A stretch of 64,000 nucleotides of DNA, from positions 1-64,000 of the forward strand of contig JAFTFG010000008.1 in the NCBI GenBank assembly GCA_017449675.1, written 5' to 3'. The stretch is from Prevotella sp. (GTDB lineage: Bacteria > Bacteroidota > Bacteroidia > Bacteroidales > Bacteroidaceae). Position 1 is the stretch's first letter, and each line of letters opens with the position of its first letter. The position numbers and the translations under genes are program-made. Below the pieces are notes generated by a model. That model searched no databases. It saw only the letters and a program-made list of their open reading frames with translations, and was not told where the DNA came from. Shown here in pieces: positions 21,435 to 39,670 of the stretch.

Positions 21435-24104
21435 TTAGTGGGAACTCATGATGATATTCACCATCATCACGATGTCCGTCACGTTGATTTCACCGTCACC
21501 GTTCACATCGGCCGCTGTCTCGTTGAACGACGCATCCGCCTGCCCCATGATCTTATTCACGGTAGCCACGATATCCGTCACGTTCACCTCACCGTCCGTA
21601 TTGGCATCACCGGCGACAGCAGGCTTGAAGGTGAAGTAATAAGTGCTGAGATAAGCCGTGCTTGTACTTGTGAAGGTCGGGAAGTAATTCAGTAGGATAC
21701 GGTAATCCCTTCCAGTCTCCAGTCCTTCATAGGTCACAGAAACCTCTTTGGTCTCTCCTGTCCCAATCTGCACTTTGGGTGTTGCCTGATAACTGTTGTA
21801 TTGGTAAGAATCGTTTTCCTTGACATACAGCCACGAACGGATCTCACGATAGTTGGTAGTGCCACCAGTATTGTTGATAGCCATGGTATATGTCGCCTTA
21901 TTGCCTGTACACTTGATATCACTGCTTGCCAGTTTCAGTGTGACCTCTCCTGTGGGAGGCTCTGTCACCGCTACCGTTGTCTGACCGATGACATTCTCTC
22001 CATTCTCGTCAGTCGCAATATAAATCGTCCAAGTTCCCGTCTCAGTAGGAGTGAAGTAGAAGGTGATATCCTCACTGCTTCCGCTCTTGATGGCAGCACC
22101 TGCTGCATAGGCAAAACTCTTGGAGCCGCTCTTACCCGCAAACAGGTAAAGTGGGGTGGCAAAGTCACCAGCATGATTCTCTACCGTAGCGTTCACCTTG
22201 ATATCACTGTTGGTGAATCGGGGTTCTCCGATATCGAATTGCGTGGCACGCAAGTCTTGGGCGATGGTGATTTCTGTCTGAGCAAGAACTACATCCCCAT
22301 TATAACTGTTCAGTAGTCGTATGGTATGATTTCCTGCCTCTTTGCCACTAATGGTGAAACGGTATTCCTTAGTATTGCCTGATGCAATACAGATCTGTCG
22401 GCCAGACGCATAAGAACCGATGTCTTCTGGCGTACCGATATACAGATAGAGGTATTTCTTCAGATGGTCACCCAGGTTGGTGATATTGAGAAGGATACTC
22501 TGATAGTTACCCGGAGTACCGCCAGTGACCATTTCAAACTTATTGACCTGAAGATTCTCTACAGGATGGGCAACGATAGACTTGGCTCCACTAGTGACAT
22601 TCACCTCGAAGTAGATATCAGCCGGTTTACAGCGTCTCCACTCCGACTCGTCTCTGAGAAGACTGATAGGTACAAGGGTATGTTTGCCGTCGGAAAGATT
22701 GTAGGATGAGAAATCAAAGGTAATACTAGACCATCCGTAATTTTTTGGGAGATCTGTAGCCTTATAACCTTCTTTTGTATCGATAGGAGTGATTGTCCCG
22801 TCAGCGTTGAGTTCTCCGATACCGAATCCGAAACCGTAGGTTTCCTCATTGCCGTTGTACAAGCGCATCGTTACTTTCAGATCCTCCATTCTCACATTGC
22901 TGGCTGAGGCCACAATACCCTCAATAGTCGGTACGTCCCAAGTGTCATCGACATTCGGGTCTTCGATATTGGGCCAGGAAGAGGGTTGCAGCCCAATGAT
23001 ACAGTGGTTATCACGGATATATCCCATCTTGGAAGTGTTGTTCTCTCCATAAGGGTTGGTGGCCTGTAGTTTGAAGTATCCGTTGTAACTGCCACCCCAT
23101 CCCCAGTTGAAGTGGTACATGCCGGCTCCGTCATAACCGTCGCAGATAAAGGCATGTCCTCCTGTATAGGATCCGCTATAGATAATCGGACGACCGTTGG
23201 CCAGTTCATTGTAGACCAGTTCATCCCATTCACTGATAGAATAGTTAGAGCGGGAAACATCCTTCCAGGTGTTGGGGTTATAGTCGAAATATTTACTCAT
23301 GCCGTCAGCCAATGTACTTGTTGAGGCACCAGACTCGTTGACTCCATAGTTCATATGAGCCGCATAGCCGCAATACAGCATGAGGTCAGCCACGGCAGCC
23401 TCCTCCTCAGTCAAGGCAGTCCCATCCTCAATAGAACTATATACAGACTTCATCTTATCCCATTGGAAGGTGATGGAAGGGAGGTCTGCCTTCGTGTCGG
23501 CACTAGTGGCTTTGTCGTCATAGCCAGGTACTACTTGGGTAGGCTCTTTCGGCCAGCGATAGTAGTACATCACCTGCGCACCAGCCGTTGCCACACACCC
23601 AGTGACAGGCAGTTTTCCGTCAATTCGGGGCAGGTGGGCATTGAACACATTACTACTCTGGTTCCATTTCGTGATAATTAGCGGTGCGATGGCTCCATGG
23701 ATGGCAGCCCGCTGTGCTGTGGGCTGTGGACCGGCAGCATTACCAGTCTGTTCTGGAGTGTTCTTGACGGCTTCTATCTCTGCCGCAGTCTGTTCCAGCC
23801 ATGCACGGAAGTTTTCCGGAAGGTTACGATCCTCGAAGTTGCCTTGGGTGGTATATCCGATAATCGGTTCTACCCGGTCGTCTCCAGCCACGATGACGAA
23901 CCCACCGTTGTTCTCGACATTAAAGACATAGTAGGCTTTGCCCTGGCCACTCTTTGAAGCAGCGCGCCGCAAGGTCTGTTGCTTGAACTGTTTACCCTGT
24001 AGAAACTGCTGGGCCTTCTGGAAAGCCATGGACTCTGAGATCTCTCCTGCGAACATCGTCAGGCAAGAGATGAAGGAAAGCAATAGTAAAACTTGTTTTT
24101 TCAT
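21435..24104 (-). CDS. C10 (streptopain-like) cysteine protease with C-terminal dockerin
   Basis: An 889-residue secreted protease. Residues 1-19 are a signal peptide. Residues 20-135 resemble the Spi/streptopain propeptide (AYYVFNVENNGGFVIVAGDD). The catalytic domain runs about 140-375, with nucleophile Cys170 in PVTGCVATAGAQ and His317 in GGHAFICDGY, followed by the conserved NWGWGG. Several Ig-like beta-sandwich segments fill about 390-825. Residues 831-889 are a complete type-I-like dockerin with two calcium loops (DANTDGEVNVTD and DVNGDGEINVTD). There is no type IX tail, so surface retention may depend on the dockerin. The gene has its own promoter and is convergent with skp2. Substrate proteins are unknown. 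Confidence 0.9.
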   Translation of the reverse strand: MKKQVLLLLSFISCLTMFAGEISESMAFQKAQQFLQGKQFKQQTLRRAASKSGQGKAYYVFNVENNGGFVIVAGDDRVEPIIGYTTQGNFEDRNLPENFRAWLEQTAAEIEAVKNTPEQTGNAAGPQPTAQRAAIHGAIAPLIITKWNQSSNVFNAHLPRIDGKLPVTGCVATAGAQVMYYYRWPKEPTQVVPGYDDKATSADTKADLPSITFQWDKMKSVYSSIEDGTALTEEEAAVADLMLYCGYAAHMNYGVNESGASTSTLADGMSKYFDYNPNTWKDVSRSNYSISEWDELVYNELANGRPIIYSGSYTGGHAFICDGYDGAGMYHFNWGWGGSYNGYFKLQATNPYGENNTSKMGYIRDNHCIIGLQPSSWPNIEDPNVDDTWDVPTIEGIVASASNVRMEDLKVTMRLYNGNEETYGFGFGIGELNADGTITPIDTKEGYKATDLPKNYGWSSITFDFSSYNLSDGKHTLVPISLLRDESEWRRCKPADIYFEVNVTSGAKSIVAHPVENLQVNKFEMVTGGTPGNYQSILLNITNLGDHLKKYLYLYIGTPEDIGSYASGRQICIASGNTKEYRFTISGKEAGNHTIRLLNSYNGDVVLAQTEITIAQDLRATQFDIGEPRFTNSDIKVNATVENHAGDFATPLYLFAGKSGSKSFAYAAGAAIKSGSSEDITFYFTPTETGTWTIYIATDENGENVIGQTTVAVTEPPTGEVTLKLASSDIKCTGNKATYTMAINNTGGTTNYREIRSWLYVKENDSYQYNSYQATPKVQIGTGETKEVSVTYEGLETGRDYRILLNYFPTFTSTSTAYLSTYYFTFKPAVAGDANTDGEVNVTDIVATVNKIMGQADASFNETAADVNGDGEINVTDIVMMVNIIMSSH

Positions 24105-24160
24105 ACTTATCGTTTAGATTACTGATTATCTGTTCTATTGTGGTTTCTCCACCCAAATTG

Positions 24161-24189
24161 CAAAGATACTGTTTTATTTTCAAAGACAA
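24161..24189 (-). promoter_or_regulatory. Promoter of the C10 protease gene
   Basis: Minus strand TATCTTTG at 24161-24168 with TTG at 24187-24189 (18-nt spacer). The start codon at 24104 lies 56 nt downstream, so the gene is transcribed apart from the cohesin-dockerin operon upstream. Confidence 0.65.
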
Positions 24190-24319
24190 AAGAGTTGATG
24201 AAGAATAATTCCTTTCTTTTTTGACTTTTAACCAAATGCGACTACTCGCCACCATATACAACAGACTGGACAGTGCTGTTGTTTGGGGCTTTATGGTCAT
24301 TAAATGGCTTCTCTTTGCT

Positions 24320-24402
24320 CAATTCTCTAGAGAATTCATCCGAAAAGAGGCACCTTTCACCCCATCAGGTGCCTTCAAACGCTCCAATTCTCGAGAGAAT
24401 TG
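24320..24402. repeat. Nested palindrome cluster
   Basis: CAATTCTCTAGAGAATTC (24320-24337) contains a perfect 16-bp palindrome. CAATTCTCGAGAGAATTG (24385-24402) is its near copy and the two can also pair with each other. Between them AGGCACCT (24348-24355) pairs with AGGTGCCT (24367-24374). The whole 83 bp could extrude as a cruciform or fold as one RNA hairpin. Function unknown: terminator, protein-binding site or a small mobile repeat are all possible. Confidence 0.6.
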
Positions 24403-24571
24403 AGTGACTATCCCGTCTCTGATGACAACGTTGTGCCAACCTTGACGACCTTGAAAAGGTTGCAAAGCCAGTGGTTATCGGTGTTTTGTCAACCTGACAA
24501 CCTTTTTCTCGAAAATTACTACTATGATATTTCATGATAAAGGTCTCATCGAACTCATGTTACATGACGAC

Positions 24572-24606
24572 AAAAGGGCAGTTTCCTTACGAGAAACTAC
24601 CCTTTT
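24572..24606 (-). terminator. Terminator of the S8/scaffoldin/BspA/cohesin-dockerin operon
   Basis: AAAAGGGCAGTTTC (24572-24585) and GAAACTACCCTTTT (24593-24606) form a 14-bp stem with one mismatched position and a 7-nt loop. It lies 28 nt past the stop codon of the last gene on the minus strand, with the T-rich arm last in the transcript. Confidence 0.7.
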
Positions 24607-24634
24607 GGTCACGAGTAAGTATTCAGATATCGTT

Positions 24635-25426
24635 CTACTTTTCTCCTTTGAAGATAAAGCCATACTCCTTGAGGATGGCCTTCACCTCCTGTTGGTCTTG
24701 TCTGGAACCGCCAGTCATGATGATATTCACCATCATCACGATGTCCGTCACGTTGATCTCACCGTCGTTGTTCACGTCAGCCGCCGTCTCGTTGAAGGAA
24801 GCATCCGCATGGCCCATGATCTTATTCACGGTAGCCACGATATCCGTCACGTTCACCTCACCGTCCTGGTTGGCATCACCCTTAACGACTTTTGTATCAA
24901 CAATACCGCTTGCATTTGGCAACGCAATCTCTTTGCGATCGCTAGCCCTGGTAAACAAGATGTCCTTCACCTCGATGGTTGCCTCGCCGTCAAACGTAGG
25001 CTCCGAAACGATGTCTATGTAGAACAAGTCACCGGAATTACCCGTCAGACTTGTGTTGCCCATTGAATAGGACAGCAGTTTCAGACCACCGTCACTGACC
25101 TCGTTGGCAGTAATGGAATGGGTGGTTCCTCTAGAGGAGAGGGAGACGATATATTTACCTTCGCTGGTCTTGGCAGGCTTTATTCCCTCAGGGAAATAGA
25201 ACTCCGCCTGAAAAGCGACATATGCCTCTTCGTTCACCAGTTGGACGGCCAACTGCTGGGTCGTACCCGGTTTGATATTCAATTTAGGAATCACCAGTTT
25301 GTCTTCTGCCATCGAGTAGGTGACAGCAAACAGTTGAAGTACGAAAAGCAGAACGGTAACCCGCAGACACCTTCCATATGAAGATGTCTGCAAGTTCCAG
25401 TTGTTATCTATTCTCATAGTCATCAT
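24635..25426 (-). CDS. Small secreted cohesin-like plus dockerin protein
   Basis: A 263-residue exported protein with a long N-region and hydrophobic signal core (about 22-40). Residues about 43-182 look like one cohesin-type beta-sandwich: LNIKPGTTQQLAVQLVN, VAFQAEFYFPEGI, then the conserved TTHSIT...DGGLKLLSYSMGN and GDLFYIDI. Residues 183-238 are a dockerin with calcium loops DANQDGEVNVTD and DVNNDGEINVTD. A short charged tail follows. Its first ATG overlaps the TAA of the LRR giant by one base (TAATG), implying coupled translation. The dockerin DNA is about 91% identical to that of the C10 protease. A protein made of only one cohesin-like and one dockerin domain suggests an adaptor. The cohesin call is by fold pattern, not by search. 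Confidence 0.75.
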   Translation of the reverse strand: MMTMRIDNNWNLQTSSYGRCLRVTVLLFVLQLFAVTYSMAEDKLVIPKLNIKPGTTQQLAVQLVNEEAYVAFQAEFYFPEGIKPAKTSEGKYIVSLSSRGTTHSITANEVSDGGLKLLSYSMGNTSLTGNSGDLFYIDIVSEPTFDGEATIEVKDILFTRASDRKEIALPNASGIVDTKVVKGDANQDGEVNVTDIVATVNKIMGHADASFNETAADVNNDGEINVTDIVMMVNIIMTGGSRQDQQEVKAILKEYGFIFKGEK

Positions 25427-28400
25427 TATTTAATCAGTACCTTCTTACCACAGATGATGTATACACCAGGCTGTTCGATATAGAGTCTGTTCTCACCGGT
25501 ATGAACCTTGATGTTCTTGGTGATACCGCTCATAGAGACAACCTGTAGGTTGCCGTCCTCAGCAGCATTGATGATGAGGTAGTGTCCATCTGCTCTCAGT
25601 GCCATACCCTCAGCATTCAGGACATTGTCGATACCCGTTGCCCCCTTGAAGGTCATAGCGGTAGACTCATCAGGTGCCAGATACTCACTGTTGTCTGCTC
25701 TGACGAGACGGATGTCACGGATGTCAACCATCTCGCCCTCGGCCATACCATCAGTGGTAATTGCCAAGTTGATGATGTTGTTCTCTGCAACATTGAAATG
25801 CTCGTTCTGCGGAGAGAATACAATCACTCTCAGTGCTCCGTTATCGAGGAGACGGGAAGAGATAGAGTGCGTACCGTTGACACCACCAGCGAGACTTACT
25901 ATCGGCTTGTCGTTCTCGTCGAGGGCTATCTTCATTGCCTCAGGCAGGTAGACATCGCACTGTAGGGCAATGAAGTTGGAAGCATTCTCCATCTTCATAC
26001 TAATCGTCTGTTGGTCACCGCTTGTCGTCACTACCTGATTCATATAGAGTCGGCCTTGGGCATCGTTTGCGATGTTGCCGGTTGCTCTGCTGGCACTTGG
26101 ACGCTCCAGAATGATGTCAACCGTTGCCGTCACGTCAGCCACTGTGATTTGGTTGTCCTTATTGACATCGGCAGCCTTCTTGATGAAGCGGTCTTGGTAG
26201 TACTGCAGGATATTGTCCACCGTATGGACGGCATCATTGATCGTAATATCACCATCACCATTACTGTCACCCAACGGATAGTCCTTCAGGTTGAAGTGGA
26301 TGGTATGGTCAGGTGCTGCAAAGTCGAAGTTATTCGGACCAGAGATATGGATATTCTTGATGGTCACATCGAAACTACCCGTCTCCTCACCAGTGGTAAA
26401 CGGCAGGAGAAGCAGGTCGCCATCAGTCTCTTGGAACTGACTTCCACCCAACGAATAGACGATGACACGTACACCACCATCCATCAGGCGGGCTGCCGAT
26501 ACCTGGTGTGCACTGGCACGTCCACTCAACTGAATGCCGAAGTCGCCATAAGCATCATTCATATTGATACCGTCAGGCATGTATACATCAAACTGGATGT
26601 CACGGGCCTCACCCTCGTTATGGAGTGCAAGAGGTATCTGGATGGTGTTCTCCACATATTCCTCTACCGTGTTCTCCATCACAATCCAGTAGTCGTTCGA
26701 CATGACGACAATCTCACATTTCTGTTCGAGTTCGGGGTTGTCAACCGACTTGGCTGTGATCTCTGCACGACCGGGAGCCACACCGCTGATGATACCCTCG
26801 CTGTTTACTGTTGCCACGTCGTTGTTGCTGCTCGTCCACTCAATGCTCTTATTGGTGGCATTGGTGGGATAGACAGCAAATCTCAACTGACGGTTCTCAC
26901 CCTTCTTCACAGCCACCTCGTCGTCAAGCATACGAAGTTCCTTCACGTGGATGTCGCCAACCACCTTCACCTGTACCTCAAATGAAGAGGCTTTAGTGAC
27001 ATTAGGTGTCTGGTAAGTACCGTCTACCATCTGAGCGGTCACATCTTCACCATTGTAGAGCACCTTCTCAATGACAACGTTCTCCTCAGGATTGACCTTG
27101 AAGGTTGCGGTCTCGTTCTCCTGTACATACAGGCTGGATCCGTCCTTCACCTTCGAACCCTGTTGCTCAGTGGCAGCGGCTCGGTTGGCACCACGGGCAG
27201 CATCTGCACCGTTATTGTAGAAGTAGAGGTTAGCACCCTCTCCGACAGTCACGTCAATGTTCTTACGCATGGAGACGAATGCACCCCATTGCGCTGCTGA
27301 CAGGTAGTCTTCGAAGGTACCTGTAGGAATAGAGAGGACGCAGCGGTCGGTGTGTACATGGTGGAACACATACTCACCGAGGTCAGCAGGTGTAAGGGCC
27401 TCCACCGTGATGTTGGCCAGTTTGCGGCAATCACCGAATACGTAGTCACGGATCCAGTTCATACTCTTCGGCAGGTAGACTGTCTCCAGATTAGAGCAGT
27501 TATTGAAAGCATAACCCTCAAGGGTACCCAGGTTCTTACAGTCGCTCAGATCAATAGAACTCAGTGACGTACAGTTCTGGAAAGCGTAGTAGTTGATTAC
27601 CTTCATCGAGGTGGGGAACTCGATGCCGTCCAGACTGGAGCAGTTAGCGAATGCTCCGTCGTCGATGCGCTCCAGGTAAGGAGGCAAGATGACCGTCTTC
27701 AGTGACGTACAGCCTGCAAAGGTATGGAAAGGAATCTCATCGAGGAAGTCGGGTTCCGACATGTCTATCTTCTCAATCTTCGAGCAGTTCTCGAAACTGG
27801 AGCCTGCTGAAGAGCCATAGCCCTCCGTTCCCATGAACATATCGAAGTCACGGTTGAACTTCACGGTACCATAGAGGCTGCTACAGTTAGCAAAGGCACT
27901 CTCACCCAGTGACTGGAAGTTACGAGGCAGGGTGATTTCCTGAGCCAGTGTAGAACATCCCTCGAAGGCATAGCCCTGGATGACCGTCAGATTCTCGTTG
28001 ATCACCACCTCTTCCAGTGATGTACAGCCTTGGAAGGCTCCATATCCGATGAACTTCAGTCCTGTTGGCAAAGTCAGTTGCCCCTTCAGGGACGAACAGC
28101 CACGGAAGGCACCCTGCTCAATGCGTAACAGTGATTGAGGCAGTTTCACGTTCATCAGTACCTTCTTGTCGAGGAAGGCATTATCTGGAATAATAGTTAC
28201 GTCTGCATCCTCCATGTCGAGGTCGTAAAGCAGTGTCATGTTCGAACGCATGATGGCGAAGTCCTGTACACCCAGTTTTCCGTTCACTTTCAGGTGAGTG
28301 ATGGTAGCAGGAGCAATACCCACTTGCTCGTTGATGTCAACAGCGAGGTTGCCCTCTCTGGTGACCGTGACTTCAGCATGCAACTCCTTGTCGAGGATGA

Positions 28401-31400
28401 CTTTGTCACCCCAGACGGCAGCATCCTTATAGGCGTTAGCGCATCCTTCAGGTACAAAGGCGGCTATCCAGGCATCAGACATCGTGTTTTCTTTTAGTGT
28501 AGGAGGCACCGTTGCCTCACTCTTGATAATGGAAATCTGCGTGCCGTTAAAGGCATACTCGCCCAAACTGGTAAAGCCGGCTCCCAATTCCAGGACACCA
28601 CCCAATTTGTTGTTCCATGCAAAGGCATAACTGTCAATCGTCTCCAGGGTCTTCGGCAACTTAAAACTCTCCAAAGCCTCACAACTTCCGAATGCCCTTT
28701 CTGGAATCGTTGTCAGTTTGGTCTTCGACAGGTCGATAGAGGTCAGTTTGCGACAACTGCTGAAAGCGGAATTGCCTAACTGTTCCAATGAGGCTGGGAT
28801 TAGTACCTCTGTCAGTTCCTGACAATTATTGAAGGCATACTCGCCAATACTCTGCAACTCGGTCAGACCACTCAAGTCCACTTTCTGAATCTTTGTATAA
28901 GCGAAAGCACTATACCCTATCATTTGCAGACTCTTTGGGAAGTTGAACGTCGTCAAAGCCTCGCAGTTTCCGAAAGCATTGCTGGTAATAGATGTCAGCC
29001 CTTCTGGTAAGGTCACTTTTACCAGGTTCTTACAATTGTAGAAGGTGCCATCCAATGTTTTCAGGTTGGTATATGCTGAGAGATCAATCTCTGATATCGT
29101 GCTTTGATAGAATACACCATACAATTTAGTAATTGTCTGTGGGAATTTGATATTCTCTAAGTTCTTTACGCCTCTGAATGCATCTCCCACTTCCGTCATC
29201 TTTGTCTGACTGAGGTCTATCACCTGCAAATTGGTATTCTCAAAAGCATTTGAATATATGTTCTCTAGGTTCTTCAATTCTGTGAAATTCACCTCTTTTA
29301 AGTTGGTACAACCTGCAAATGCAAAGTCGGAAATCCAGCGTGTCATCTCAGGAAGACGGACACTGGTCAGCGACTTCTTACCTACAGAAGTGCCACTCCA
29401 ACTCGTAGAAGTACAGAAGGCCTGAGAGGGGAAATACTCGACCTGCGCTTTCCAGAGGTCAAGAACACTCAGTTGTGGCATCTCATCACGCATGGTGTAG
29501 AAGTCCTGTTCTGACAGAGGACCGCTGATGGTGAGTTTGGTCGCATTCTGCTTCTGAGTGGCTGACAGCATGTTCTTGAGGTTGCCGGCATCTTCCATGA
29601 CTACTGTAAGTTCTGCATTCACACGGAAGGTGACCTCCAGGGTGGCATCGTCACTGACATTCTCAATGGTCAGTTGACCCGCGTCATCCAGTTGGGCAGT
29701 AACGGTATTGCCATTAAGTGTGACCGCATCCACTACATAATACTGGTCGGGTTTCATGGCTAATACGGCAGGCTGTCCTTTGGGTAACTGAATCGTGGTC
29801 TCAGGCAATAGGGTGGTGTTCTTATATTCCACCGTACCGCCTTCACTCGTTGTTACGGTATAAGTAGCCACATCACCACTTGCACCGGCCGTACCGAAGG
29901 TGATGGCCAGCGTAGAGTTGGCTGTGATGGCTGGTGTTACGTAGGTAGTTCCACCATTCTGCACCACACTCTCCTGACCGTTGAAGACGATGGCACTGAC
30001 TACCTGACCTTCTGCTGGTTCCAAGGTGAAGTTCAGTGTGGAAAGATTATCAACGGTCAAAGTCTGATTAGTGGTATATTCTAAGGAACCGAGTTTCACC
30101 TTACCGTTGCCAGAAATCTGTAGGTCTAACTTATACTGATTGACGGCAAAGGTGACTGTCAGTTTTCCATTGAGTTGATTGCTGTTAAGCGTGAACTTGT
30201 TGTCGGCAAAAGGAATATCTACGCCATCCAATTTCACAGCATTAGCATGCCAACCCTCATTTGGAATAATCTCGAACAAAACTGTGCTTCCACTGGGGAA
30301 GAATGTGGTTGTTCCCATCAGGGTCTGTCCACTTACACGCACTTTACCTTCTTCGCCAATAGTAACCTGCAGGCCATATTCCTTTACTTTAGTGAAGTCT
30401 GACCATTTTGGTGCATCAGCATAGGCCTTCGTTGAACCAATAGGAACATACAGTGTACAATTGTCAAAATCAATATTACTAAAGGAAGAATTGTCGTTCA
30501 CATCAAACGGTGTAGAACGGCTTACATATAAGCGCTCCAATGTGGTTGGAAGAACTTTCTCACCATAGATGGAGGAGAGGGCTGCAGGAAGCCGAAGTTC
30601 TGTCAGTTGTGCATCTTTTAATGCCTCATAGCCCATCTGGTAGTCTCCCTTTTCTGGTAGCAGCAGTGAAGTACAACTGCCAAAAGTGTTGTAGGCAAAT
30701 CCTCCTGTCAGTGTACACTGGCTCAGGTCAAAACTGCGGACAGACGACTCAGTAAAGACATTAGACCAACCGAGTGTTGTCAAAGAAGCGGGCATCACCA
30801 ACGAAGCAGGTAGAGAACTGCAACCGTTAAATGCGTCATAATCGATTTTCTGTATTTTATCACCAAAGGGGAAGACAGACAACTTGCTACAAGATCTGAA
30901 GGCAGAATATTCTATTTCCTTCACATTTTCACATCCGTCTATTGTTGTCAGTTTCTGACAATTGGAGTATGCATTGCTGCCGATAATGGTAACCGTTGAC
31001 GGCAGATGGACGATGGTTATATTCTGATGATCCTGAAATGCCTGAGACGGAATCGTCTTTACATCCGTCTCACGGATGTCAAATTCCTTAAGCGCTGTCA
31101 GGCTGCCTCTTACGTAACTCCAGTCCTTGGCAGTCATCTTACCCGTTACTTTTAACACGTTGATGGAGTTGATACTTCTGCCTGATGCTGTAATCAGGTC
31201 TTTCAACTCACCACCATTGGGATTGGCAATCGTGAATGGGTTGGCAGTAAATGCTACGTTCAATGTTCCTACTGTGCTACCCGCAGGAATGGTAAAGTTT
31301 CCGTCAGCATCCACATCCAAGGTATTGTTATCGAGAGTTACGGAAATCAGTTCACATCCCGTCTCAGGTATGGCTGTCAATGTAGTTGCAGCACCCTGGT

Positions 31401-33477
31401 TAGCAAAGAAGACATCACCATTTCCATAGGTAATACTACCTTGTTGCACGGTTCCGTATCCACTGATGTCTACCTTGAACCCTGATTCCTTGATATTACT
31501 AAACCCTGACCAGCCTGTAGCATCCTCATAGGTTTCTTTAGATCCGATAGGCACATACAACGTACAATTGTCCAGATCAAGGTTGGTAAAGGATCTGCTT
31601 TCTGCACTGATAGGTTGTATGGTGCTAACATAAAGTCGCTCCAGTGTGGTGGGGAAAATACCATCGCCCCAAATAGATGAAACGACTGCTGGTAGGCGAA
31701 GTTCTGTCAGTTGTGCATCGCCCAGTGCATTCCAACTTAAAGTATAATTTCCTTTCTCCGGTAATAATAGATAGGTACATTTACCAAAGGCATTATAGGA
31801 AATATTAGTATCCTTAAACGTACACTGGCTCAAGTCGAAACTGCGGACGGAAGACCCGTTGAAAACATAGTTATTAATCGATGTTAGGGAGGCTGGCATC
31901 ACCAAGGAAGCAGGCAACGAGGTACAGTTTTCAAATGCCGAACTGCCTATTTCCCAAATAGCATTGCCAAAAGGGAATACAGACAATGTCGAACAACTGG
32001 CGAAGGCGGAAGAACCTATCGTTGTGACATTGTCACATCCGTCAATTATGTTCAACTTCTCGCAATAATAGAATGCATTGCTTCCAATGATAGTCACAGT
32101 GGAAGGCAGATGCACAGTTGTCAAACTTCCTTTGTTGCTAAATACTTCTTCGGGAACACTCTTCACGTCCGTCTCACTGATATCGAACTCCTCCAATGCC
32201 GTCAGGTTGTTCTTGATGAAGTTCCAGTCTTTTGCCGCAAGTGTACCCGTCACCCTCAGTGTGGTGATGGAACTGGCACTTTTGCCAGAAGCAGCAATCA
32301 GGTCTCTTAATTCTCCGCCGTTGGGATTGTCGATGGTGAAGGCCTTGGAGGTGAAGACAATGTCCAATGTACCTGTCGTATTGCCGGCAGGAATGGTAAA
32401 GGTGCCGTCAGATGCCACATTCACGGCACTGCCGTTAAGGGTGACGGAAATCAGTTCATTGTCTCCTTCTGGTACGACTTTCAAGGTTGTAGCAGCATTC
32501 TGGTTGGCAAAAAATACATTGCCGTTTAAATAAGTTCTGTTTCCCAACTGCAATGCGCCGTAACCAGAGATGTTAACTTGGAAGCCCATCTCCTCCATAT
32601 ATTGATAGAGGCTGCCCCAGCCGTCGGCAATGGCATAACTACGCTTTGATCCCTTCGCAATGTAGACCTTGAGGGATAGGTTGTCTGTTTCTAAGATGTT
32701 CTTGAAGGTTTCCTCTTGACAAGTTGGAGGTGTAGCAGACTCCACATATAATGTTTTCAGCGTTCGTGGCAGACAATAGCCACTTAAATATGTCACGGCT
32801 TGTGTCAGTGTCAGATTCTCTAATCCCTTATAAATCCATTGCTGGGTAGTCTCGTCCCAACTCTGATCTACATTAAAGCATGACCATTCAAGACGCAGGT
32901 TACCCTGAGAAGGGAAGAGAACTTCTTGGAGGTTGAATAAGTTTGCAAATGCAGAACTACCCAAAGTCTCCAAACTGGTACATGCGGAAAAATCTAAATG
33001 AGTGAGTTTTTTACAATTATAAAAGGCATTAGTGTCCACAATGCGCAGACTGGCAGGAAAAACGATCTTCCCTGTCACTGCAGCCTTATTGCCAAATGTT
33101 ACTGATTCCAACAGTTGACAACCGCTGAAGGCCTCATAATTGATGTTTGTGATTCCCTCTGGCAGTCTTACTGTCTTGAGTGTTTCCTTACCATAGAAAG
33201 CCCTGTTGGGAACCTTTGTGACATTGGTTCCCGAGACATCAAGAATTTCCAACTGTGACATCTGGTTCTTGATGAGTTGGAAATCACTATCTCCAATAAC
33301 ACCCGTCACTTTCAAGTTCTTGATGGCAGAGAAATTGGTGACACCCTGTGCTTCCAGCGCATCCCACAGACCACCTGCCGTGTTCACTTGTACAGTCACT
33401 GTCTGCGCCATCGCACGGATGACGAATACTGATGTCAATAGCATCAGCCATGCTGTAGTTAGTAATCGTTTTTTCAT
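25426..33477 (-). CDS. Giant BspA-like LRR_5 surface protein with Big2, two cohesin-like domains, dockerin and T9SS tail
   Basis: A 2683-residue secreted protein. Signal peptide 1-24. LRR_5 (BspA/TpLRR) blocks lie at about 50-290, 400-665, 770-1040, 1310-1690 and 1730-2070, recognised by repeats such as IGSNAFYYCEKL and IEQGAFRGCSSL. InlB-B-like beta segments separate them (e.g. about 300-375, 668-750, 1040-1290). Residues 2175-2260 are a Big2 Ig-like domain (VAVKKGENRQLRF, ATVNSEGIISGVAPG). Then come cohesin-like 1 (about 2262-2398), a dockerin (2402-2460; DSNGDGDITIND and DVNKDNQITVAD), cohesin-like 2 (about 2475-2612) and a type IX sorting tail ending GVYIICGKKVLIK. Residues 300-667 and 668-1040 are a tandem duplication. 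BspA proteins bind host proteins or other bacteria; here the domain mix suggests an anchoring adhesin of the assembly. Confidence 0.85.
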   Translation of the reverse strand: MKKRLLTTAWLMLLTSVFVIRAMAQTVTVQVNTAGGLWDALEAQGVTNFSAIKNLKVTGVIGDSDFQLIKNQMSQLEILDVSGTNVTKVPNRAFYGKETLKTVRLPEGITNINYEAFSGCQLLESVTFGNKAAVTGKIVFPASLRIVDTNAFYNCKKLTHLDFSACTSLETLGSSAFANLFNLQEVLFPSQGNLRLEWSCFNVDQSWDETTQQWIYKGLENLTLTQAVTYLSGYCLPRTLKTLYVESATPPTCQEETFKNILETDNLSLKVYIAKGSKRSYAIADGWGSLYQYMEEMGFQVNISGYGALQLGNRTYLNGNVFFANQNAATTLKVVPEGDNELISVTLNGSAVNVASDGTFTIPAGNTTGTLDIVFTSKAFTIDNPNGGELRDLIAASGKSASSITTLRVTGTLAAKDWNFIKNNLTALEEFDISETDVKSVPEEVFSNKGSLTTVHLPSTVTIIGSNAFYYCEKLNIIDGCDNVTTIGSSAFASCSTLSVFPFGNAIWEIGSSAFENCTSLPASLVMPASLTSINNYVFNGSSVRSFDLSQCTFKDTNISYNAFGKCTYLLLPEKGNYTLSWNALGDAQLTELRLPAVVSSIWGDGIFPTTLERLYVSTIQPISAESRSFTNLDLDNCTLYVPIGSKETYEDATGWSGFSNIKESGFKVDISGYGTVQQGSITYGNGDVFFANQGAATTLTAIPETGCELISVTLDNNTLDVDADGNFTIPAGSTVGTLNVAFTANPFTIANPNGGELKDLITASGRSINSINVLKVTGKMTAKDWSYVRGSLTALKEFDIRETDVKTIPSQAFQDHQNITIVHLPSTVTIIGSNAYSNCQKLTTIDGCENVKEIEYSAFRSCSKLSVFPFGDKIQKIDYDAFNGCSSLPASLVMPASLTTLGWSNVFTESSVRSFDLSQCTLTGGFAYNTFGSCTSLLLPEKGDYQMGYEALKDAQLTELRLPAALSSIYGEKVLPTTLERLYVSRSTPFDVNDNSSFSNIDFDNCTLYVPIGSTKAYADAPKWSDFTKVKEYGLQVTIGEEGKVRVSGQTLMGTTTFFPSGSTVLFEIIPNEGWHANAVKLDGVDIPFADNKFTLNSNQLNGKLTVTFAVNQYKLDLQISGNGKVKLGSLEYTTNQTLTVDNLSTLNFTLEPAEGQVVSAIVFNGQESVVQNGGTTYVTPAITANSTLAITFGTAGASGDVATYTVTTSEGGTVEYKNTTLLPETTIQLPKGQPAVLAMKPDQYYVVDAVTLNGNTVTAQLDDAGQLTIENVSDDATLEVTFRVNAELTVVMEDAGNLKNMLSATQKQNATKLTISGPLSEQDFYTMRDEMPQLSVLDLWKAQVEYFPSQAFCTSTSWSGTSVGKKSLTSVRLPEMTRWISDFAFAGCTNLKEVNFTELKNLENIYSNAFENTNLQVIDLSQTKMTEVGDAFRGVKNLENIKFPQTITKLYGVFYQSTISEIDLSAYTNLKTLDGTFYNCKNLVKVTLPEGLTSITSNAFGNCEALTTFNFPKSLQMIGYSAFAYTKIQKVDLSGLTELQSIGEYAFNNCQELTEVLIPASLEQLGNSAFSSCRKLTSIDLSKTKLTTIPERAFGSCEALESFKLPKTLETIDSYAFAWNNKLGGVLELGAGFTSLGEYAFNGTQISIIKSEATVPPTLKENTMSDAWIAAFVPEGCANAYKDAAVWGDKVILDKELHAEVTVTREGNLAVDINEQVGIAPATITHLKVNGKLGVQDFAIMRSNMTLLYDLDMEDADVTIIPDNAFLDKKVLMNVKLPQSLLRIEQGAFRGCSSLKGQLTLPTGLKFIGYGAFQGCTSLEEVVINENLTVIQGYAFEGCSTLAQEITLPRNFQSLGESAFANCSSLYGTVKFNRDFDMFMGTEGYGSSAGSSFENCSKIEKIDMSEPDFLDEIPFHTFAGCTSLKTVILPPYLERIDDGAFANCSSLDGIEFPTSMKVINYYAFQNCTSLSSIDLSDCKNLGTLEGYAFNNCSNLETVYLPKSMNWIRDYVFGDCRKLANITVEALTPADLGEYVFHHVHTDRCVLSIPTGTFEDYLSAAQWGAFVSMRKNIDVTVGEGANLYFYNNGADAARGANRAAATEQQGSKVKDGSSLYVQENETATFKVNPEENVVIEKVLYNGEDVTAQMVDGTYQTPNVTKASSFEVQVKVVGDIHVKELRMLDDEVAVKKGENRQLRFAVYPTNATNKSIEWTSSNNDVATVNSEGIISGVAPGRAEITAKSVDNPELEQKCEIVVMSNDYWIVMENTVEEYVENTIQIPLALHNEGEARDIQFDVYMPDGINMNDAYGDFGIQLSGRASAHQVSAARLMDGGVRVIVYSLGGSQFQETDGDLLLLPFTTGEETGSFDVTIKNIHISGPNNFDFAAPDHTIHFNLKDYPLGDSNGDGDITINDAVHTVDNILQYYQDRFIKKAADVNKDNQITVADVTATVDIILERPSASRATGNIANDAQGRLYMNQVVTTSGDQQTISMKMENASNFIALQCDVYLPEAMKIALDENDKPIVSLAGGVNGTHSISSRLLDNGALRVIVFSPQNEHFNVAENNIINLAITTDGMAEGEMVDIRDIRLVRADNSEYLAPDESTAMTFKGATGIDNVLNAEGMALRADGHYLIINAAEDGNLQVVSMSGITKNIKVHTGENRLYIEQPGVYIICGKKVLIK
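30360..32580 (-). repeat. Tandem 1.1-kb duplication inside the LRR giant
   Basis: Residues about 300-667 (DNA 32580-31477) and 668-1040 (31476-30360) repeat the same order: VxISGYG, FFANQ.AATTL, an NPNGGEL linker, an LRR block with the shared VHLPSTVTIIGSNA and SSVRSFDLSQCT, then PTTLERLYVS and DNCTLYVPIGS. The DNA has diverged but many stretches stay alignable. The second copy lacks a following InlB-like unit of the same type. Confidence 0.8.
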
Positions 33478-33504: not shown

Positions 33505-35586
33505 TTATTGCAAAATAGCATGTATGATCTGAACCACATCAGTAACGGTGATCCTTCCGTCCTGATTCATGTCTGCCTGCGACTTTGTGAACTCAGAAGA
33601 GTCTCTTTCCAAGATGTAATCGACGACACAGGAGATGTCCGTAACGGAAACGTGTCCGTCATTATTGGCATCACCCATGAGTCCGGACAGGCCACCCACT
33701 TGTAGCGTGGCGGTAGGTGACGATGCGCAGTCGCGTCCCTCAGCGGTACTCAGGATAATTTGATCGGCTAGGATGTTCGTCTTGTCGTAACTGGCCAGTC
33801 CTTCCACCTTATTATATATAAGGGTGATGACGGAACCGTCGCCCACAGTAATGGGTGTGTTATGCTCCGAATAGACATATACCCGGTAGCAGTCATCGGA
33901 TTGCTTCGTGATTTCTACCTGATAGTCTGTTGCACGAGAGGAGAAAGTAAACTCCTCCTTTACAGGCACCATACCGGCTATCCAATGCAGGTCGAACTGC
34001 ATGCCGGCAACGGGTAGGGTGTTCTTCATGGTGATTGTTATCGCATATTGACCAGGCTTTCCGCTCACAGGTTGTCCGCTCAACGCAATCTCGTTGACGG
34101 CGTATGTCGTACCGCTCAGTACAACGGTCTGCATCTTGTTTTCCGGGTCATTACTGTAGATATTCATGAAACCGTCAAAGGCCTCTTCACCGGCAGGATG
34201 ATAGCAGACCTCTATCTCTGTGGTCTCCCCTGCTGCAATGGTTGGCAGGTTGGCAGCCTCCGTCAGTGTGAATGCCTCCTTGGAGAAGTCTACACGCTGT
34301 ATGACGAGTGGTGCCTCACCCGTATTCTTGATAGCAAACTTCTTTTTGAGGATATCCTCCAGAGGTATTCTGCCAAACTCCAGTTCAGAGGCACATGTTA
34401 TCTTGGGGGCAGCGATACGGATGGTGGTACCGTTGACCTCAGAGGTCATATCCTGTCCATCCGCATTGCTTAAGAGAACATCAATAGGGTCTAGACGGTA
34501 GTCGCCTCCCGTTCCGTTCAACAGGAGTTTGAATGTGAACAGTTCTCCCTCGTTGCCAGACAAAACGGCATTGGTAGAGGAATGGATATAGAACGACAGT
34601 TTATCGCCCAGCATCGTCCCGGATATCTCATGGGATCCATTTGTAGTCCTTCCCGACAGCGTCGCACTGCCTTCCACATATTTCAGTGCATCAGGCAAGG
34701 TGAAACAGCATTGTGTGGCGACAATCGGCTCCATATTCTGCATACTGACACGTACCGTCACTTCATCGCCTGATTGTCCGGAGGCTCCTGTGACAGATAA
34801 CGTGTTCACGGAGAAGGGGGCAGCAGTGACGTGAATGGTTTGACGACCGTTTGACGCATCGGAAAGGAGTGTGATGTCCGTCTGGTCGCTTCCATATTGC
34901 GTCGGACTGTATTCTATGGTCAACGTCTTCTGCTGTCCGGCGGCGATGGTCATGGATGTCGGACTGACCTTGAACAATGCCGATGTACTTGTAATCTCAG
35001 AAACATTTAGAGGCTCATTGCCGATATTGTTGACAGACACCTCTTTTTTATGGGTGCTTCGAATAGGTACACTACCATAGTCAATCTCCGACATGCCAAG
35101 GGATATCTTCGGACAGAGGATCGTGACTGTGCCGCCCTGTGCACTGACGGACAGCGATTGTGCTGCTGCGTCGCTTAACATCGCCTCAGGACTGAGTGCA
35201 TAGGTGCCCGGCTCATTCCCCAGTTTCAGACGGAAGGTCATCAAGGCTCCTTTGCCCTCTTTGAAGGTGTTGAGGGAGACATCGTAGACATACAGGTTCA
35301 GTTTGTTGTCCTCATCAGAGACAGAGAAGGTGTGGCTTTCAGAAACCCGTTGGGCGTTCAGTACAGCCGATCCCTCCACATAACTGACATAAGGAGTATG
35401 GGGAATATTGATCTGCAAGGCTGTTGCAGACTGTGCACCACTAAGCATCACACTCACTTCCACCTCCTCGCCCGGATGTCCGGATACCGAGGTGAGGGAA
35501 ACGGCGCTTTGGGCGCTCATCGGCATTGCCGCCATCAGCGACAATGCCATGCACAGGATGAATACGTATGGTTGCAGACGTATCAT
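33505..35586 (-). CDS. Scaffoldin-like protein: three cohesin-like domains, two Hydin-type Ig domains, one dockerin
   Basis: A 693-residue exported protein, signal peptide 1-26 (ending MSAQS). Domain order as read: cohesin-like 1 (27-156; VSGHPGEEVEVSVMLSGAQ), ASPM/SPD-2/Hydin-type sandwich 1 (158-256; EIDYGSVPIRSTHKKEVSV), cohesin-like 2 (259-392; ASGQSGDEVTVRVSMQN), Hydin-type 2 (395-493; ELEFGRIPLEDILKKKF), cohesin-like 3 (497-632) and dockerin (637-693; loops DANNDGHVSVTD and DMNQDGRITVTD). There are no catalytic motifs. Multiple cohesin-like modules with a terminal dockerin is the architecture of a scaffoldin. It starts 9 nt after the S8 stop codon and ends 27 nt before the LRR giant, so all are one operon. 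There is no type IX tail, so it must be held by another component. Confidence 0.78.
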   Translation of the reverse strand: MIRLQPYVFILCMALSLMAAMPMSAQSAVSLTSVSGHPGEEVEVSVMLSGAQSATALQINIPHTPYVSYVEGSAVLNAQRVSESHTFSVSDEDNKLNLYVYDVSLNTFKEGKGALMTFRLKLGNEPGTYALSPEAMLSDAAAQSLSVSAQGGTVTILCPKISLGMSEIDYGSVPIRSTHKKEVSVNNIGNEPLNVSEITSTSALFKVSPTSMTIAAGQQKTLTIEYSPTQYGSDQTDITLLSDASNGRQTIHVTAAPFSVNTLSVTGASGQSGDEVTVRVSMQNMEPIVATQCCFTLPDALKYVEGSATLSGRTTNGSHEISGTMLGDKLSFYIHSSTNAVLSGNEGELFTFKLLLNGTGGDYRLDPIDVLLSNADGQDMTSEVNGTTIRIAAPKITCASELEFGRIPLEDILKKKFAIKNTGEAPLVIQRVDFSKEAFTLTEAANLPTIAAGETTEIEVCYHPAGEEAFDGFMNIYSNDPENKMQTVVLSGTTYAVNEIALSGQPVSGKPGQYAITITMKNTLPVAGMQFDLHWIAGMVPVKEEFTFSSRATDYQVEITKQSDDCYRVYVYSEHNTPITVGDGSVITLIYNKVEGLASYDKTNILADQIILSTAEGRDCASSPTATLQVGGLSGLMGDANNDGHVSVTDISCVVDYILERDSSEFTKSQADMNQDGRITVTDVVQIIHAILQ

Positions 35587-35595
35587 AAGCAGGTC

Positions 35596-38500
35596 TTAAT
35601 AGATCACTTTCTTTCCGTTGCTGATATAAACACCCTTAGAGGGTTTGGTGACACGACGACCATTCAGGTCGTACATACCCTTTGGCTCGGATGTCTGGTC
35701 TGGGGTAATCTTCTCGATACCGGTAGGCACCCTCAGGGTAACCTCCACTTCATTGCCCCATTTGTCACTCAGTACGATATTAATGAGGGAGGTATTACCT
35801 ACATACATGATGGGATGGCGACCGGCAGGAATGGTGCGGCCTGCCATAGAGTAGGCCATCATCAGACTGGTGTCGCTATCCTTCTCTTTATAAGTCATAT
35901 ACTCCATACCCTCCAAGGCTTTGAGCGGGGTGAACTGAACTTGTTCAGGAGAGGTCAGGTGGAACTGGATACCACCCAGTTCTACAGGACTGTCGAGGTA
36001 GAGAATACCGTCTTCAACAATAAACTCAGCACTGTTCAGTGACTGTGCCATCTGTCTGGAACCTGTGTTGTTCAGAGCCAGATTGATGGTTCCTACCACA
36101 TCCAGGATATTGATGTGTTCATCACCGTTGATATCCGCAGCCTCGAAGATAAACGGCTGTGGGTTCTGGTTGGTGAGGTAGTCAATCAAGGTAACCACGT
36201 CGCTGACGGTGATCTTGTTATCACCGTTGGGATCACCCTTGGCAGAAGTCAACGGAGTGGCTGCTACGGTAAGTGACGGCTCAGAAGAGTCGAGGTTCGA
36301 GCGCAGAGAGCGGTAGAAGTAATAATAGGTGGTGCCAGGAGTCACATCGTAATCGGTGAAGGTCATCTCTGTTCCTTCTCCTTCTTCGATAATACCTTGG
36401 TTCACAAGGGTGGTGTCAGATGACGTACCATCCTCTTTCAGGATGTAACGATACATGTTATAGCCCATCACATCCTCTACTTCCTCAGGATCAACAGCAT
36501 CCCATGATAGTTTGACAAGTCCCATACCAGGTTCTGCCATGAAGCCTAAACTCTTGCTGCCTGCGGCACCGATAGGTACGTTGAAGCGGGCACGTTCTAC
36601 AGGGATGACGAAGTGCTCCAAGTCCTGGGCATCGGCCACATAGAAGCGGTTGATTCCATCGAAGGCACTCTTTGCCGTGATAGTGATTTCTGCGGAGTAA
36701 ACGGTACCTGCTTCATTCCAGGTGGGATTCTCGTTGATGAAGGTCTGTGTATAGGGAGGACGTACACCCATGGCCAGATAAGGCAGTATCGTCTTATCCA
36801 TCGGACGGTTGAAGTAGACATCCACCTTATGCGTACCAACACCCAGTGGTGGTATCTCATCATAGTTGTCCTGTGCATCGATACCGTCAACCAGTATCTT
36901 CCAGACGATACCATGTGCCTGTTCATTGGGTTGGGTCAGCATGTTCGTTAGGTTTACGGCAGCAAAGGAGTGATAGAGAACATCATTCGCCTCATTGTTA
37001 TAATCCATTACAGACAGACCTGCAATATCTTTTCTGGCAGTTCCTAGATAGGAGGGATAATCATAATACTCCACCTTCGGCTCTAAGTCTACGTTAGCGA
37101 TATTGGCATAACAGTTCAGATAGTTGGAAGAGTTACCATAGACATTACATGCATTGAGGTTTGACCATTTTGTTGCGAAGTTATACCAGGGACCCATGTT
37201 GTGTGGGCAATATTCCTTATAACTTGTGGTCAGGTTACCTACGATATTGGTGTTCTTGTGAGTGTTGCCGAATTCGTAACCGACTTCACCTGTATTATTG
37301 ATGATATTACATCTGGTAGTGGTGACACCCGTCATACCAAGGCAGCCCATGAAACAGTCTTGGAAGATGCAATCAGTGAATAATCCACCTGTGATGAGGT
37401 TGGGAGAATCTGTCGAGAGCATCTGGAACTGGCAGTATTCAAACCGACAATAACTGTTGAAAGCCATAGTGGGGACGATACCTTGACTGAGATCTCCTTT
37501 AGTAAAGATAATAGGTTGGTCTGGTGTACCGATGGCTCTGATGCGTCCTCGTTCTGAAACTTTGAGTAACGCATTGTCATGGAACTTGATGGTGGTACCA
37601 GCAGGAATCGTCAGGACAATACCATTAGGAATAGCCAGCGACTTGGTGACAATGTAATGCTTGCCTGCCACCAGTTCCTTACTCTCTCCCAGGATACCAC
37701 CGAGTTCCTCACCATTCTCCACCGTAATCATAAAGTCTTGACCAATGGTCTCACCAGTTCCGTTCTCACAGGTCGAGTTAATCCTCAGGCGGATATGGCG
37801 ACCATCCACACAATTCTCACTGATCTTGAAGCGGATGGGGTTCACGCTCTGTTCCTTGCCATAACTATGCAGGGTACGGCCGAAGTCCACATTATTCTCC
37901 AATACTTCGATAATCTCCGTATCTTCGTTCTCACTGGTGGTCAACGAGCACTTAATACCAACAGCCTCACCCCAAGAGTTGCGCATGATAGGGTAGAGTT
38001 CAATGATCTCACCTGCATCGAAGCGTCCGTCGCCATCACCGCCCTCTACGTCACTCATGACATAGTTTACCAGCATCAGTGAAGGCTTGCGGTCGGCATC
38101 CGTCAAATTATAGGCAGCCATCACGTCCATGACCCCTGACTCCGGATTGGCAGTGGCAATCAAATCACCAAAGAGCAGTTCCTTGCTGGAGTATTCTTTC
38201 GTCTCCAACAGGCGACTGATGGCTCCTGCTGCCAGAGGCGTGGCCATCGACGTACCATTCATGGACTTATAACGACCTCCTGGATAGGTACTCAGGATAT
38301 TCGTACCGGGAACCATCAACTCGTAGTTGTAGAGTTTCTCCTCGTCGAAGATGGCCAAATCGGTATAGATGGGACCGTCATCGTCCAAGTTACTGAAACA
38401 GGCTCGCCAGGGATTGGCTCTATAGGGGTCTGTTCCTTTGCCGCAATTACTATAACATGTTCCGTAATAGTCCTTACTGGCCTCTACGCCCAGTACGAAG

Positions 38501-39670
38501 GTAAAGGCACCAGGGTACATGGGCTTTGAACAGCAAGAGTGTCCGGGGTAGAGGCAGAGCCCGTCATTACCGGCTGCCGCTACAATCACACTGTAATGGT
38601 AAGCCTTGCCCAGTGCCAGTTCCTCGGCCATGGAGTAGCCATAACTACCCAGACTCATGGAGATGACATCTACCTCGTGGCTCATGGCATATTCGATACC
38701 ACGGATGATGGTACCTACATCGCCAGTACCATCACTCTGCAAGACGGTAACCGGCATGATAAGTGCATCGGGATTGGCTCCTACGACACCGATTCCATTA
38801 CCTTGTACGGCGGCTGCAATACCGGCACAGTGGGTTCCATGTCCGTTCCAGTCACCCAGACGGCCTGTCTGGTTCACACAGTCCCATCCATGCAGGTCGT
38901 CCAGATAACCGTTCTGGTCATCGTCCGCACCTTCTACACCGTTGGCCTCTTTCTCATTGGTCCAGATATTGGCTTCCAGATCGGGGTGAGCGATATCAAC
39001 ACCGGTATCAAGGATCGCAATGACTGGACGATGGCCTAGTACATTCTGGGTCGAGGTGGCCCAGAATTCTGGCAGTTTGATGACTGCAGGTCCCCACTGC
39101 TGTGAATACATCGGATCGTTGGGAGTGAATGTTGCGGGAGGCGTTGCCGTCCTGCGGCTCTGCTGAACAGCCGGTGTGGGGGGGGGCAAGACTGCCTAAG
39201 GCATATACCACATAGTTGGGTTCTGCAAACTCCACCTCGTCCAGTTGCTTGAAAGCGTTTACAGCCTCACGGACACCAACGGCGTTCTCTGCGTCATATT
39301 CTACCAGATACAATTTCGACAGGTCACGATCCTCGATTGGTTTGCCATTGGCATAGCGTACACGAGAGGAATTCTGTACCTTGATCTTACCGGCTACAGG
39401 CATCAACTGTTCCATATTAGTGACTCCCAGTTGATTAATAATGCTCTGTACGCGTGAGGAACTGGCTCTCACTCGTCCGGAAGCACTCCGGAGGCTAATA
39501 GAACTGTCATCCTTGAACTTCACTAGAACCTGACCGGCACGGAAAGGTTTGTTGACGGTGTCCAGTTTGACGACATCGTAGTCCTCGGTGCCATGTGATA
39601 CATGAGCGGACATGGACATAGTACCTGCAAACAGCAGTGCCATTGCCAATAGGTAATGATTTGCTTTCAT
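35596..39670 (-). CDS. S8 subtilisin-like protease with dockerin, cohesin-like domain and T9SS tail; frameshifted at a C9 tract
   Basis: The gene starts at 39670 (MKANHYLLAM, signal peptide) and encodes a fervidolysin/I9-like propeptide (GQVLVKFKDD to EFAEPNYVVYAL). Frame is lost at nine C (plus-strand G run 39178-39186). With C9 the first frame runs on to a stop at 39008, giving a ~220-residue propeptide-only product; with C8 it joins the downstream 1197-codon frame. Numbering that part from its first codon: Asp61 (ILDTG), His117 (NGHGTH), Asn208 (AGND) and Ser314 (NGTSMATP), so the triad is intact. Then come a beta-helix-like region (about 505-700), a fibronectin-III-like segment (880-980), a dockerin (985-1040), a cohesin-like domain (about 1050-1150) and a type IX tail ending GVYISNGKKVIY. 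Upstream TTG as a second start is unlikely since it would lack a signal peptide. Sequencing error is the main alternative. Confidence 0.82.
39178..39186 (-). repeat. Poly-C (C9) tract at the S8 frameshift
   Basis: Nine G on the plus strand, i.e. nine C in the coding strand, between the propeptide codons (GSLA) and the catalytic-domain codons (TPAVQQ). Counting codons, C8 or C11 restores one open frame and C9 does not. It lies in a linker, where Pro-number variation would be tolerated. Confidence 0.85.

Follow-up and report, generated by a model that had tools for sequence, protein, structure and literature searches.

Can a member of the Bacteroidota hold secreted enzymes at its surface by means of the cohesin and dockerin modules known from the cellulosome? 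This question is raised by five neighbouring minus-strand genes of Prevotella sp. (assembly GCA_017449675.1, which is incomplete, with 1.80 Mb and 54% completeness), located in a window of 64,000 nucleotides that comprises positions 1-64000 of contig JAFTFG010000008.1 (C19). The genes encode an S8 subtilase, a scaffoldin-like protein, a giant BspA-type leucine-rich repeat protein (the LRR giant), a small adaptor and a C10 protease. We read this locus as a Bacteroidota version of the cellulosome assembly, and it probably encodes the central components of a cohesin-dockerin assembly at the cell surface, in which cohesin proteins with a type IX secretion system (T9SS) tail anchor cargo with C-terminal dockerins. 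The modules themselves, the operon and its conservation, the co-occurrence of cohesins and dockerins, and the dockerin and the tail as alternative C-termini of C10 proteases all emerge from sequence comparison; the most telling point, which was absent from the initial annotation of this DNA, is that the dockerin appears to take the position of the T9SS sorting domain.

Dockerin and cohesin modules

The features of the five proteins, all encoded on the minus strand, are as follows.

35596..39754, minus: S8 subtilase gene in two frames (39008-39754, part of the prodomain; 35596-39189, catalytic domain, dockerin, shortened cohesin-like segment and T9SS-type tail)
36049..36240, minus: S8 dockerin (Pfam)
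33505..35586, minus: scaffoldin-like protein, 693 aa (PF00963 2.8e-12 over three stretches, PF00404 5.3e-12, PF22544 8e-27)
35113..35508, minus: scaffoldin cohesin 1 (profile searches)
34408..34806, minus: scaffoldin cohesin 2 (profile searches)
33691..34089, minus: scaffoldin cohesin 3 (Pfam and profile searches)
33508..33678, minus: scaffoldin C-terminal dockerin (Pfam PF00404)
25426..33477, minus: BspA-type LRR giant, 2683 aa (PF13306 1.8e-181, PF02368 1.1e-15)
26281..26688, minus: LRR giant cohesin 1 (profile searches)
26086..26274, minus: LRR giant dockerin (23.7 bits in the genome search)
25642..26055, minus: LRR giant cohesin 2 (profile searches)
24635..25426, minus: small adaptor, 263 aa (dockerin 3.1e-10; AlphaFold pLDDT 92.1)
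24887..25303, minus: small adaptor cohesin (profile searches and PDB fold matches)
24695..24883, minus: small adaptor dockerin (Pfam)
21435..24104, minus: C10 protease, 889 aa (PF01640 1.8e-60, PF13734 2.7e-23, PF07705 1.7e-6, PF00404 1.6e-10)
21438..21614, minus: C10 protease dockerin (Pfam)

The initial annotation ascribed a dockerin to each of the five proteins, and this held. In the Pfam search, four dockerins were above the curated cut-off of PF00404 (scaffoldin, C10 protease and small adaptor with the values listed above, S8 with 7.9e-8), and that of the LRR giant, with 11.7 bits against a cut-off of 22.9 in hmmscan, was just above it in the genome search; it scored 80.3 bits with a lineage profile, which had included this very dockerin. 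As in a cellulosome, the enzymes carry type I dockerins with paired calcium loops, and the scaffoldin holds three cohesins in one chain, which match solved cohesins by profile. The matches go beyond chance: among the control genomes, family searches matched a dockerin in 2 of 14 and a cohesin in 1 of 14.

The cohesins are more divergent from the known family. In the Pfam search, PF00963 was matched only by the scaffoldin, both within the five proteins and in the whole genome, and in hmmscan the LRR giant did not match this family at E<=1. Related genomes proved to contain many further cohesin-like modules when searched with a profile built from eight seed segments. An alignment of 31 modules, taken from this genome and its relatives (A1; six are from the window), yielded a profile that matched cohesins in PDB, with 5n5p as the best match (5.6e-12), followed by 6kgc (1.6e-6) and NagJ 2jh2 (1e-3), and also an Archaeoglobus cohesin; PF00963 recognizes 21 of the 31 at E<=1. 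Structure prediction, which had been proposed as a check, was run on the small adaptor, and its AlphaFold model (pLDDT 92.1, pTM 0.69) had 111 matches in PDB at E<=0.001; among the 50 listed, 46 had cohesin in the title and 4 were Clostridium thermocellum scaffoldin complexes. The TM-score against 6kgd_A was 0.78 by target length and 0.52 by query length, and the module is thus predicted to have the cohesin beta-sandwich fold. By comparison, the C-terminal model of the LRR giant (pLDDT 81.9) gave mixed matches, with the cohesin dyad 3l8q first, followed by integrins, immunoglobulin chains and more cohesins, and these fold matches may say little beyond cohesin.

Seven cohesins had originally been proposed; the three in the scaffoldin, the two in the LRR giant and the one in the small adaptor are supported, and the one in the S8 protein is uncertain. 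This segment (residues 1049-1165, a shortened stretch of about 100 aa), which was left out of alignment A1, gave a weak match with the 31-module profile (sequence E 0.0025 in a search of seven sequences) and 80.5% probability with E 1.3e-5 over 86 columns in a profile-profile comparison; a 52-residue piece was uninformative as a query, and a longer alignment did better.

The order of the modules differs among the proteins. The scaffoldin consists of cohesin, ASH-like, cohesin, ASH-like (ASH/choice-of-anchor-D), cohesin and C-terminal dockerin, and has no T9SS tail. In the LRR giant, the leucine-rich repeats and Big_2 are followed by cohesin-dockerin-cohesin and a T9SS-type C-terminal tail, and the C10 protease consists of an I69 prodomain, C10, CARDB and a C-terminal dockerin, again without a T9SS tail. 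The small adaptor carries one cohesin, a linker of about 2 aa, a dockerin of the cargo class and an extra C-terminal helix. A stretch of about 24 aa with the motif GFIF follows the dockerin in several dockerin proteins of this genome (24635-24700 in the window; loci L015, L016, L017 and L018), and it is this tail that is modelled as the extra helix in the small adaptor (model residues 202-214).

Dockerins and T9SS tails as alternative C-termini

The S8 protein and the LRR giant each end in a T9SS-type terminal motif. We devised the motif used here to call tails, and likewise the rule for signal peptides. In the model of the LRR giant, residues 365-421 contain seven predicted strands of low to middling confidence. 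The genome encodes SprA, the sole T9SS component searched (TIGR04189, 2600.9 bits).

Among 115 distinct dockerin or cohesin proteins drawn from the fetched loci, the tail motif was found in none of the 74 proteins with a terminal dockerin vs 34 of the 41 others, a contrast that is partly built in because there is no room for a tail after a terminal dockerin. The seven proteins with neither feature were two C10 proteases with a dockerin 55-56 aa from the end, three tail-like near-misses and two proteins without an evident tail. Cohesin proteins mostly carry a T9SS tail or themselves end in a dockerin. Genome G195, picked later for its many dockerins and two cohesins and analyzed in 19 regions around the stronger of its 31 dockerin matches, gave the same picture with the same built-in component: the tail was absent from 20 of 20 terminal-dockerin proteins and present in its two cohesin proteins, the only ones it has.

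C10 proteases allow the comparison within one catalytic family, since T9SS-tailed C10 proteases are known and here a dockerin replaces the tail. The set comprised 64 proteins from 16 completely searched genomes, after exclusion of 5 of 69 that came from loci picked for dockerins (three from the genome of the window, one each from G018 and G025). Fifteen of the 64 carried a dockerin, 28 a strict T9SS tail, 21 neither and none both (Fisher p 4.4e-5, with relatedness uncontrolled). The four genomes with dockerins contributed 35 proteins (15 with dockerin, 15 with tail, 5 other; Fisher p 4.9e-6, again with relatedness uncontrolled), and the 12 dockerin-free genomes contributed 29 (13 with strict tail, 16 other, no dockerin). 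The five excluded proteins, all with dockerins, also had no tail. On a C10 tree built by a quick method (68 rows, one short row of the 69 being omitted; 25 of its 64 inner branches had weak support), the dockerin label required 10 changes, at least four of which were forced by strongly supported branches, and was more clustered than in any of 500 shuffles. Dockerin and tail thus appear to have been switched repeatedly.

Operon structure and conservation

The S8, scaffoldin, LRR giant and small adaptor genes, separated by 9, 27 and -1 bp, form a tight operon. The C10 gene is set apart from the small adaptor gene by 530 bp and is likely a separate transcription unit. An operon of five genes was rejected on account of this gap and of a TTTG...TATCTTTG box upstream of C10, which by eye is of the Bacteroides promoter type; scans for promoters (29 vs a shuffle mean of 23.1, sd 4.7) and terminators (16 vs 13.9, sd 3.9) gave counts close to, or not much higher than, the shuffle means. 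The stretch that separates the small adaptor gene from C10 contains two short, near-identical inverted repeats, AATTCTC-NN-GAGAATT (24321-24336 and 24386-24401), with a spacing of about 50 bp. The locus is adjoined by two opposite-strand genes at 20193-21353, which from their look presumably encode OmpH/Skp-like periplasmic chaperones.

Relatives of the scaffoldin were found with a profile from an alignment of three scaffoldins. Orthologues with 63-69% identity were present in three Prevotella, and a relative with 35% identity in one metagenome-assembled genome (MAG) of Paludibacteraceae, in which an S8 gene lies beside that of the three-cohesin protein. The order of the four genes, with the same modules, was kept in Prevotella sp. 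tf2-5 (loci L061 and L169, identical to each other), Tb.RUG.517 and UBA2755, in the last of which the LRR gene is broken by unread bases. A C10-dockerin gene adjoins a gene for a tailed cohesin in tf2-5, in Tb.RUG.517 and elsewhere in the present genome (L018), where the tailed cohesin protein is 224 aa long. The initial annotation had treated the five neighbouring genes as one set, whose conservation was to be looked for in relatives; the locus is indeed kept in relatives, and the unit that holds its order is one of four genes, with C10 outside the tight operon. What had been observed was largely right, and confirmed in part, and the interpretation given to it is partly supported.

In the genome of the window the S8 gene, initially taken as one gene, is in two frames, with the prodomain (PF16361, 4.2e-9) on one and the catalytic domain (PF00082, 4.7e-43) and dockerin (residues 984-1031) on the other. 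A run of nine C (minus strand) at 39178-39186 lies at the break, which could be due to slipped-strand phase variation or to an assembly error. In the three Prevotella relatives S8 is a single intact frame. An S8 relative in G014 (L055) is likewise split into two frames, at another place in the gene.

In a survey of 248 genomes of the same genus, dockerins were found in 116 and cohesins in 123; 114 genomes had both, 2 had only a dockerin (one match each), 9 only a cohesin and 123 neither (Fisher p 9e-57, from a comparison of two listings with relatedness uncontrolled and with profiles partly built from the surveyed genomes). Cohesins were found in 31 of 295 genomes sampled from the order, some as arrays. 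Multi-cohesin scaffoldin-like frames occur in other families of the order, with at least 7 modules in a 1728-aa frame of G305 (G305:C85:22780-27183) and at least 6 in a 2467-aa frame of G038 (G038:C25:211542-215552). In G195 and in G165, at least 25 dockerin matches stand against just two for cohesin, a pattern reminiscent of ruminococci in which cohesins are few.

Cargo and dockerin classes

In this clade (three genomes), 14 of the 27 dockerin proteins that have no cohesin are proteases (11 C10 and 3 S8), which makes proteases the largest recognized cargo group; one GH53 and one CBM_3 protein were also found. In two other genomes of the genus, G009 and G102, 7 of 28 cargo proteins are C10 proteases and one is M6 (one short protein was omitted from the G009 scan, so that 28 of 29 were used). 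Four have CotH domains, and GH53, GH26, GH28, GH43, an arabinofuranosidase domain and pectate lyase are represented by one member each. The locus had been interpreted as a protease complex that contains no glycosidase; the protease-rich cargo of the clade agrees with this, and the glycosidases of G009 and G102 show it to be too narrow. The name "proteolysome" is therefore apt only locally, because relatives add glycosidases, and the cargo beyond proteases in other genomes suggests that the assembly principle is general. Pfam detected no carbohydrate-binding module (CBM), cellulase or other plant-polysaccharide enzyme in the five window proteins, the scaffoldin and LRR giant included. A cellulosome in the strict sense was rejected, since the scaffoldin has no CBM and the clade's 27 cargo proteins include only one glycosidase.

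A comparison of 48 cargo dockerins from five genomes showed a mean identity of 0.63 within a genome and 0.42 between genomes. Within a genome identity was 0.64 across cargo families, and between genomes it was 0.44 where both dockerins were from C10 proteases. Cargo dockerins are hence alike by genome more than by enzyme, as expected if receptors are shared. The present genome, tf2-5 and Tb.RUG.517 share a single set of dockerins (0.67-0.70 between genomes), and G009 and G102 each have their own. By look, the small adaptor carries a dockerin of the cargo class; the dockerins of the scaffoldin, LRR giant and S8 protein differ from it and resemble their counterparts in tf2-5 and Tb.RUG.517. These classes suggest that the assembly may be layered, as in ruminococci.

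Anchoring, export and alternative explanations

In the mechanism that we propose, T9SS-tailed cohesin proteins (the LRR giant and the 224-aa protein encoded elsewhere in the genome) would be exported and fixed to the surface, and secreted enzymes, chiefly C10 proteases, would carry a C-terminal dockerin that replaces the T9SS tail. This cargo would plug into the tailed cohesins directly, or by way of the scaffoldin, which has three cohesins and no tail, and the adaptor with its single cohesin. Binding, its dependence on calcium, the matching of particular dockerins with particular cohesins and the surface location are predictions, and the purpose would be protein capture and breakdown by a rumen or gut commensal. 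The initial annotation had suggested that the tailed S8 protein and LRR giant could anchor the rest; a cohesin-dockerin assembly with tailed anchors is supported by our findings, with the anchoring itself a matter of prediction.

A number of points weigh against this reading, beginning with the limits given above on the co-occurrence counts and on the contrast between terminal dockerins and tails. Co-occurrence is also partly trivial because many proteins bear both modules, and within the C10 family too the dockerin and the tail are both C-terminal features. In the dockerin-free genomes, 16 of the 29 C10 proteins did not match the strict motif. Tails called by the motif matched TIGR04183 in 19 of 50 cases (best 1.1e-5) and PF18962 in 11 of 50 at E<=10; the S8 tail matched neither of them, nor any other family in NCBIfam, and the full S8 and LRR giant proteins matched neither of these two families. 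Moreover, the reading frame of the S8 gene is interrupted here, assembly between chains is a prediction, and most adjacent cohesin-dockerin pairs are joined by a linker of 2-7 aa, so that such a pair could be an intramolecular stability unit.

This last point leads to an alternative in which cohesin-dockerin pairs would be calcium-stabilized stalks and terminal dockerins protective caps, with no assembly between proteins. The single-chain pair in the small adaptor, modelled with confidence, is consistent with it, as are the short linkers, although the pTM of 0.69 leaves the mutual placement of the modules unsure. However, 57 of the 74 terminal-dockerin proteins have no cohesin in the same chain, the cargo dockerins within a genome are alike across different enzymes, and dockerin presence tracks cohesin presence genome by genome; we thus consider this explanation improbable.

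The export of the cargo bears on a further alternative. By a crude rule, 70 of the 74 proteins that end in a dockerin resemble Sec type I precursors, and they are not known to carry an outer-membrane export signal, as would be the case if tail-less cargo with a signal peptide stayed in the periplasm and met cohesins only in passing. However, the cargo includes C10 proteases, pectate lyase and GH53, families expected to be extracellular, and related C10 proteases use T9SS-type tails, so that there is little chance of a purely periplasmic system. Lipoprotein export was rejected as the general cargo route, with one weak lipobox pattern in 74 proteins. Under the preferred reading of a surface assembly, the most economical idea for the crossing of the outer membrane may be that cargo travels, or is retained, with tailed cohesins. 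More tentatively, dockerin cargo might bind a tailed cohesin already in the periplasm and ride through the translocon as a passenger, a possibility that we would not favor over its alternatives. If it were true, one sorting domain would serve many enzymes, the pairing would be both secretion ticket and anchor, and a species could widen its set of surface enzymes by adding dockerins alone.

Least probable is that dockerins tether enzymes not to cohesins but to substrate, glycan or other cells: dockerin-rich, cohesin-poor genomes exist (31 matches vs 2 in G195) and the part of PMC9763041 available to us leaves room for another immobilization, as in Ruminococcus albus 8, but 114 of the 116 dockerin genomes also have cohesins, both G195 cohesin proteins are T9SS-tailed, as few anchors for many cargoes would be, and PMC6118326, as far as its accessible text goes, suggests that a single cohesin anchors isolated dockerin enzymes in R. 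albus.

Comparison with known systems

Ruminococcus flavefaciens is Gram-positive, and its cellulosome resembles the present system in having dockerins on peptidases, LRR proteins and scaffoldins, and distinct dockerin groups. Unlike in R. flavefaciens, the anchors here are T9SS-tailed, neither a CBM nor a cellulase is seen in the five window proteins, and the largest recognized cargo group of the clade consists of proteases. The cohesin fold is also known outside cellulosomes, in the Clostridium perfringens NagJ-type and Archaeoglobus fulgidus cohesins, which are among the profile and fold matches found here. These are single modules, on glycosidases or in archaea; unlike the present locus, they are not known to have a scaffoldin set with T9SS anchors.

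In the portions of the literature available to us, dockerin proteins of R. flavefaciens FD-1 include 16 peptidase and 28 LRR modules (PMC2930009), and dockerin proteases are already known in Ruminococcus and Clostridium (PMC2930009, PMC12484212). The rumen Prevotella MAGs ERACg_55 and _56 have dockerins on GH, CBM and domain-of-unknown-function (DUF) modules, peptidases are the commonest catalytic dockerin partners across that whole metagenome, and the role of dockerins in polysaccharide utilization loci of rumen Bacteroidetes is described as "not defined yet" (PMC7480376). Cohesins have been noted in certain Bacteroidetes (PMC6071333) and dockerins in some cockroach Bacteroidales (PMC10266427); by contrast, the Bacteroidetes genome studied in PMC5831590 has neither module, and cohesins are confined to Firmicutes_A in PMC9177762. 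These reports on rumen Bacteroidetes and Prevotella concern the same phylum and genus, but the parts accessible to us describe no anchors, T9SS link or partner set. A search of titles and abstract openings, with most subscription journals outside its range, turned up no account of an assembly in which T9SS-tailed cohesins carry dockerin cargo.

Implications

The locus offers a ready partner set, an anchoring logic based on T9SS-tailed cohesins, and a named strain with the whole operon, Prevotella sp. tf2-5. It raises the question of whether the T9SS can export cargo that has no sorting domain of its own. If our reading is true, the cellulosome principle would be extended to the Gram-negative surface and to the breakdown of protein.

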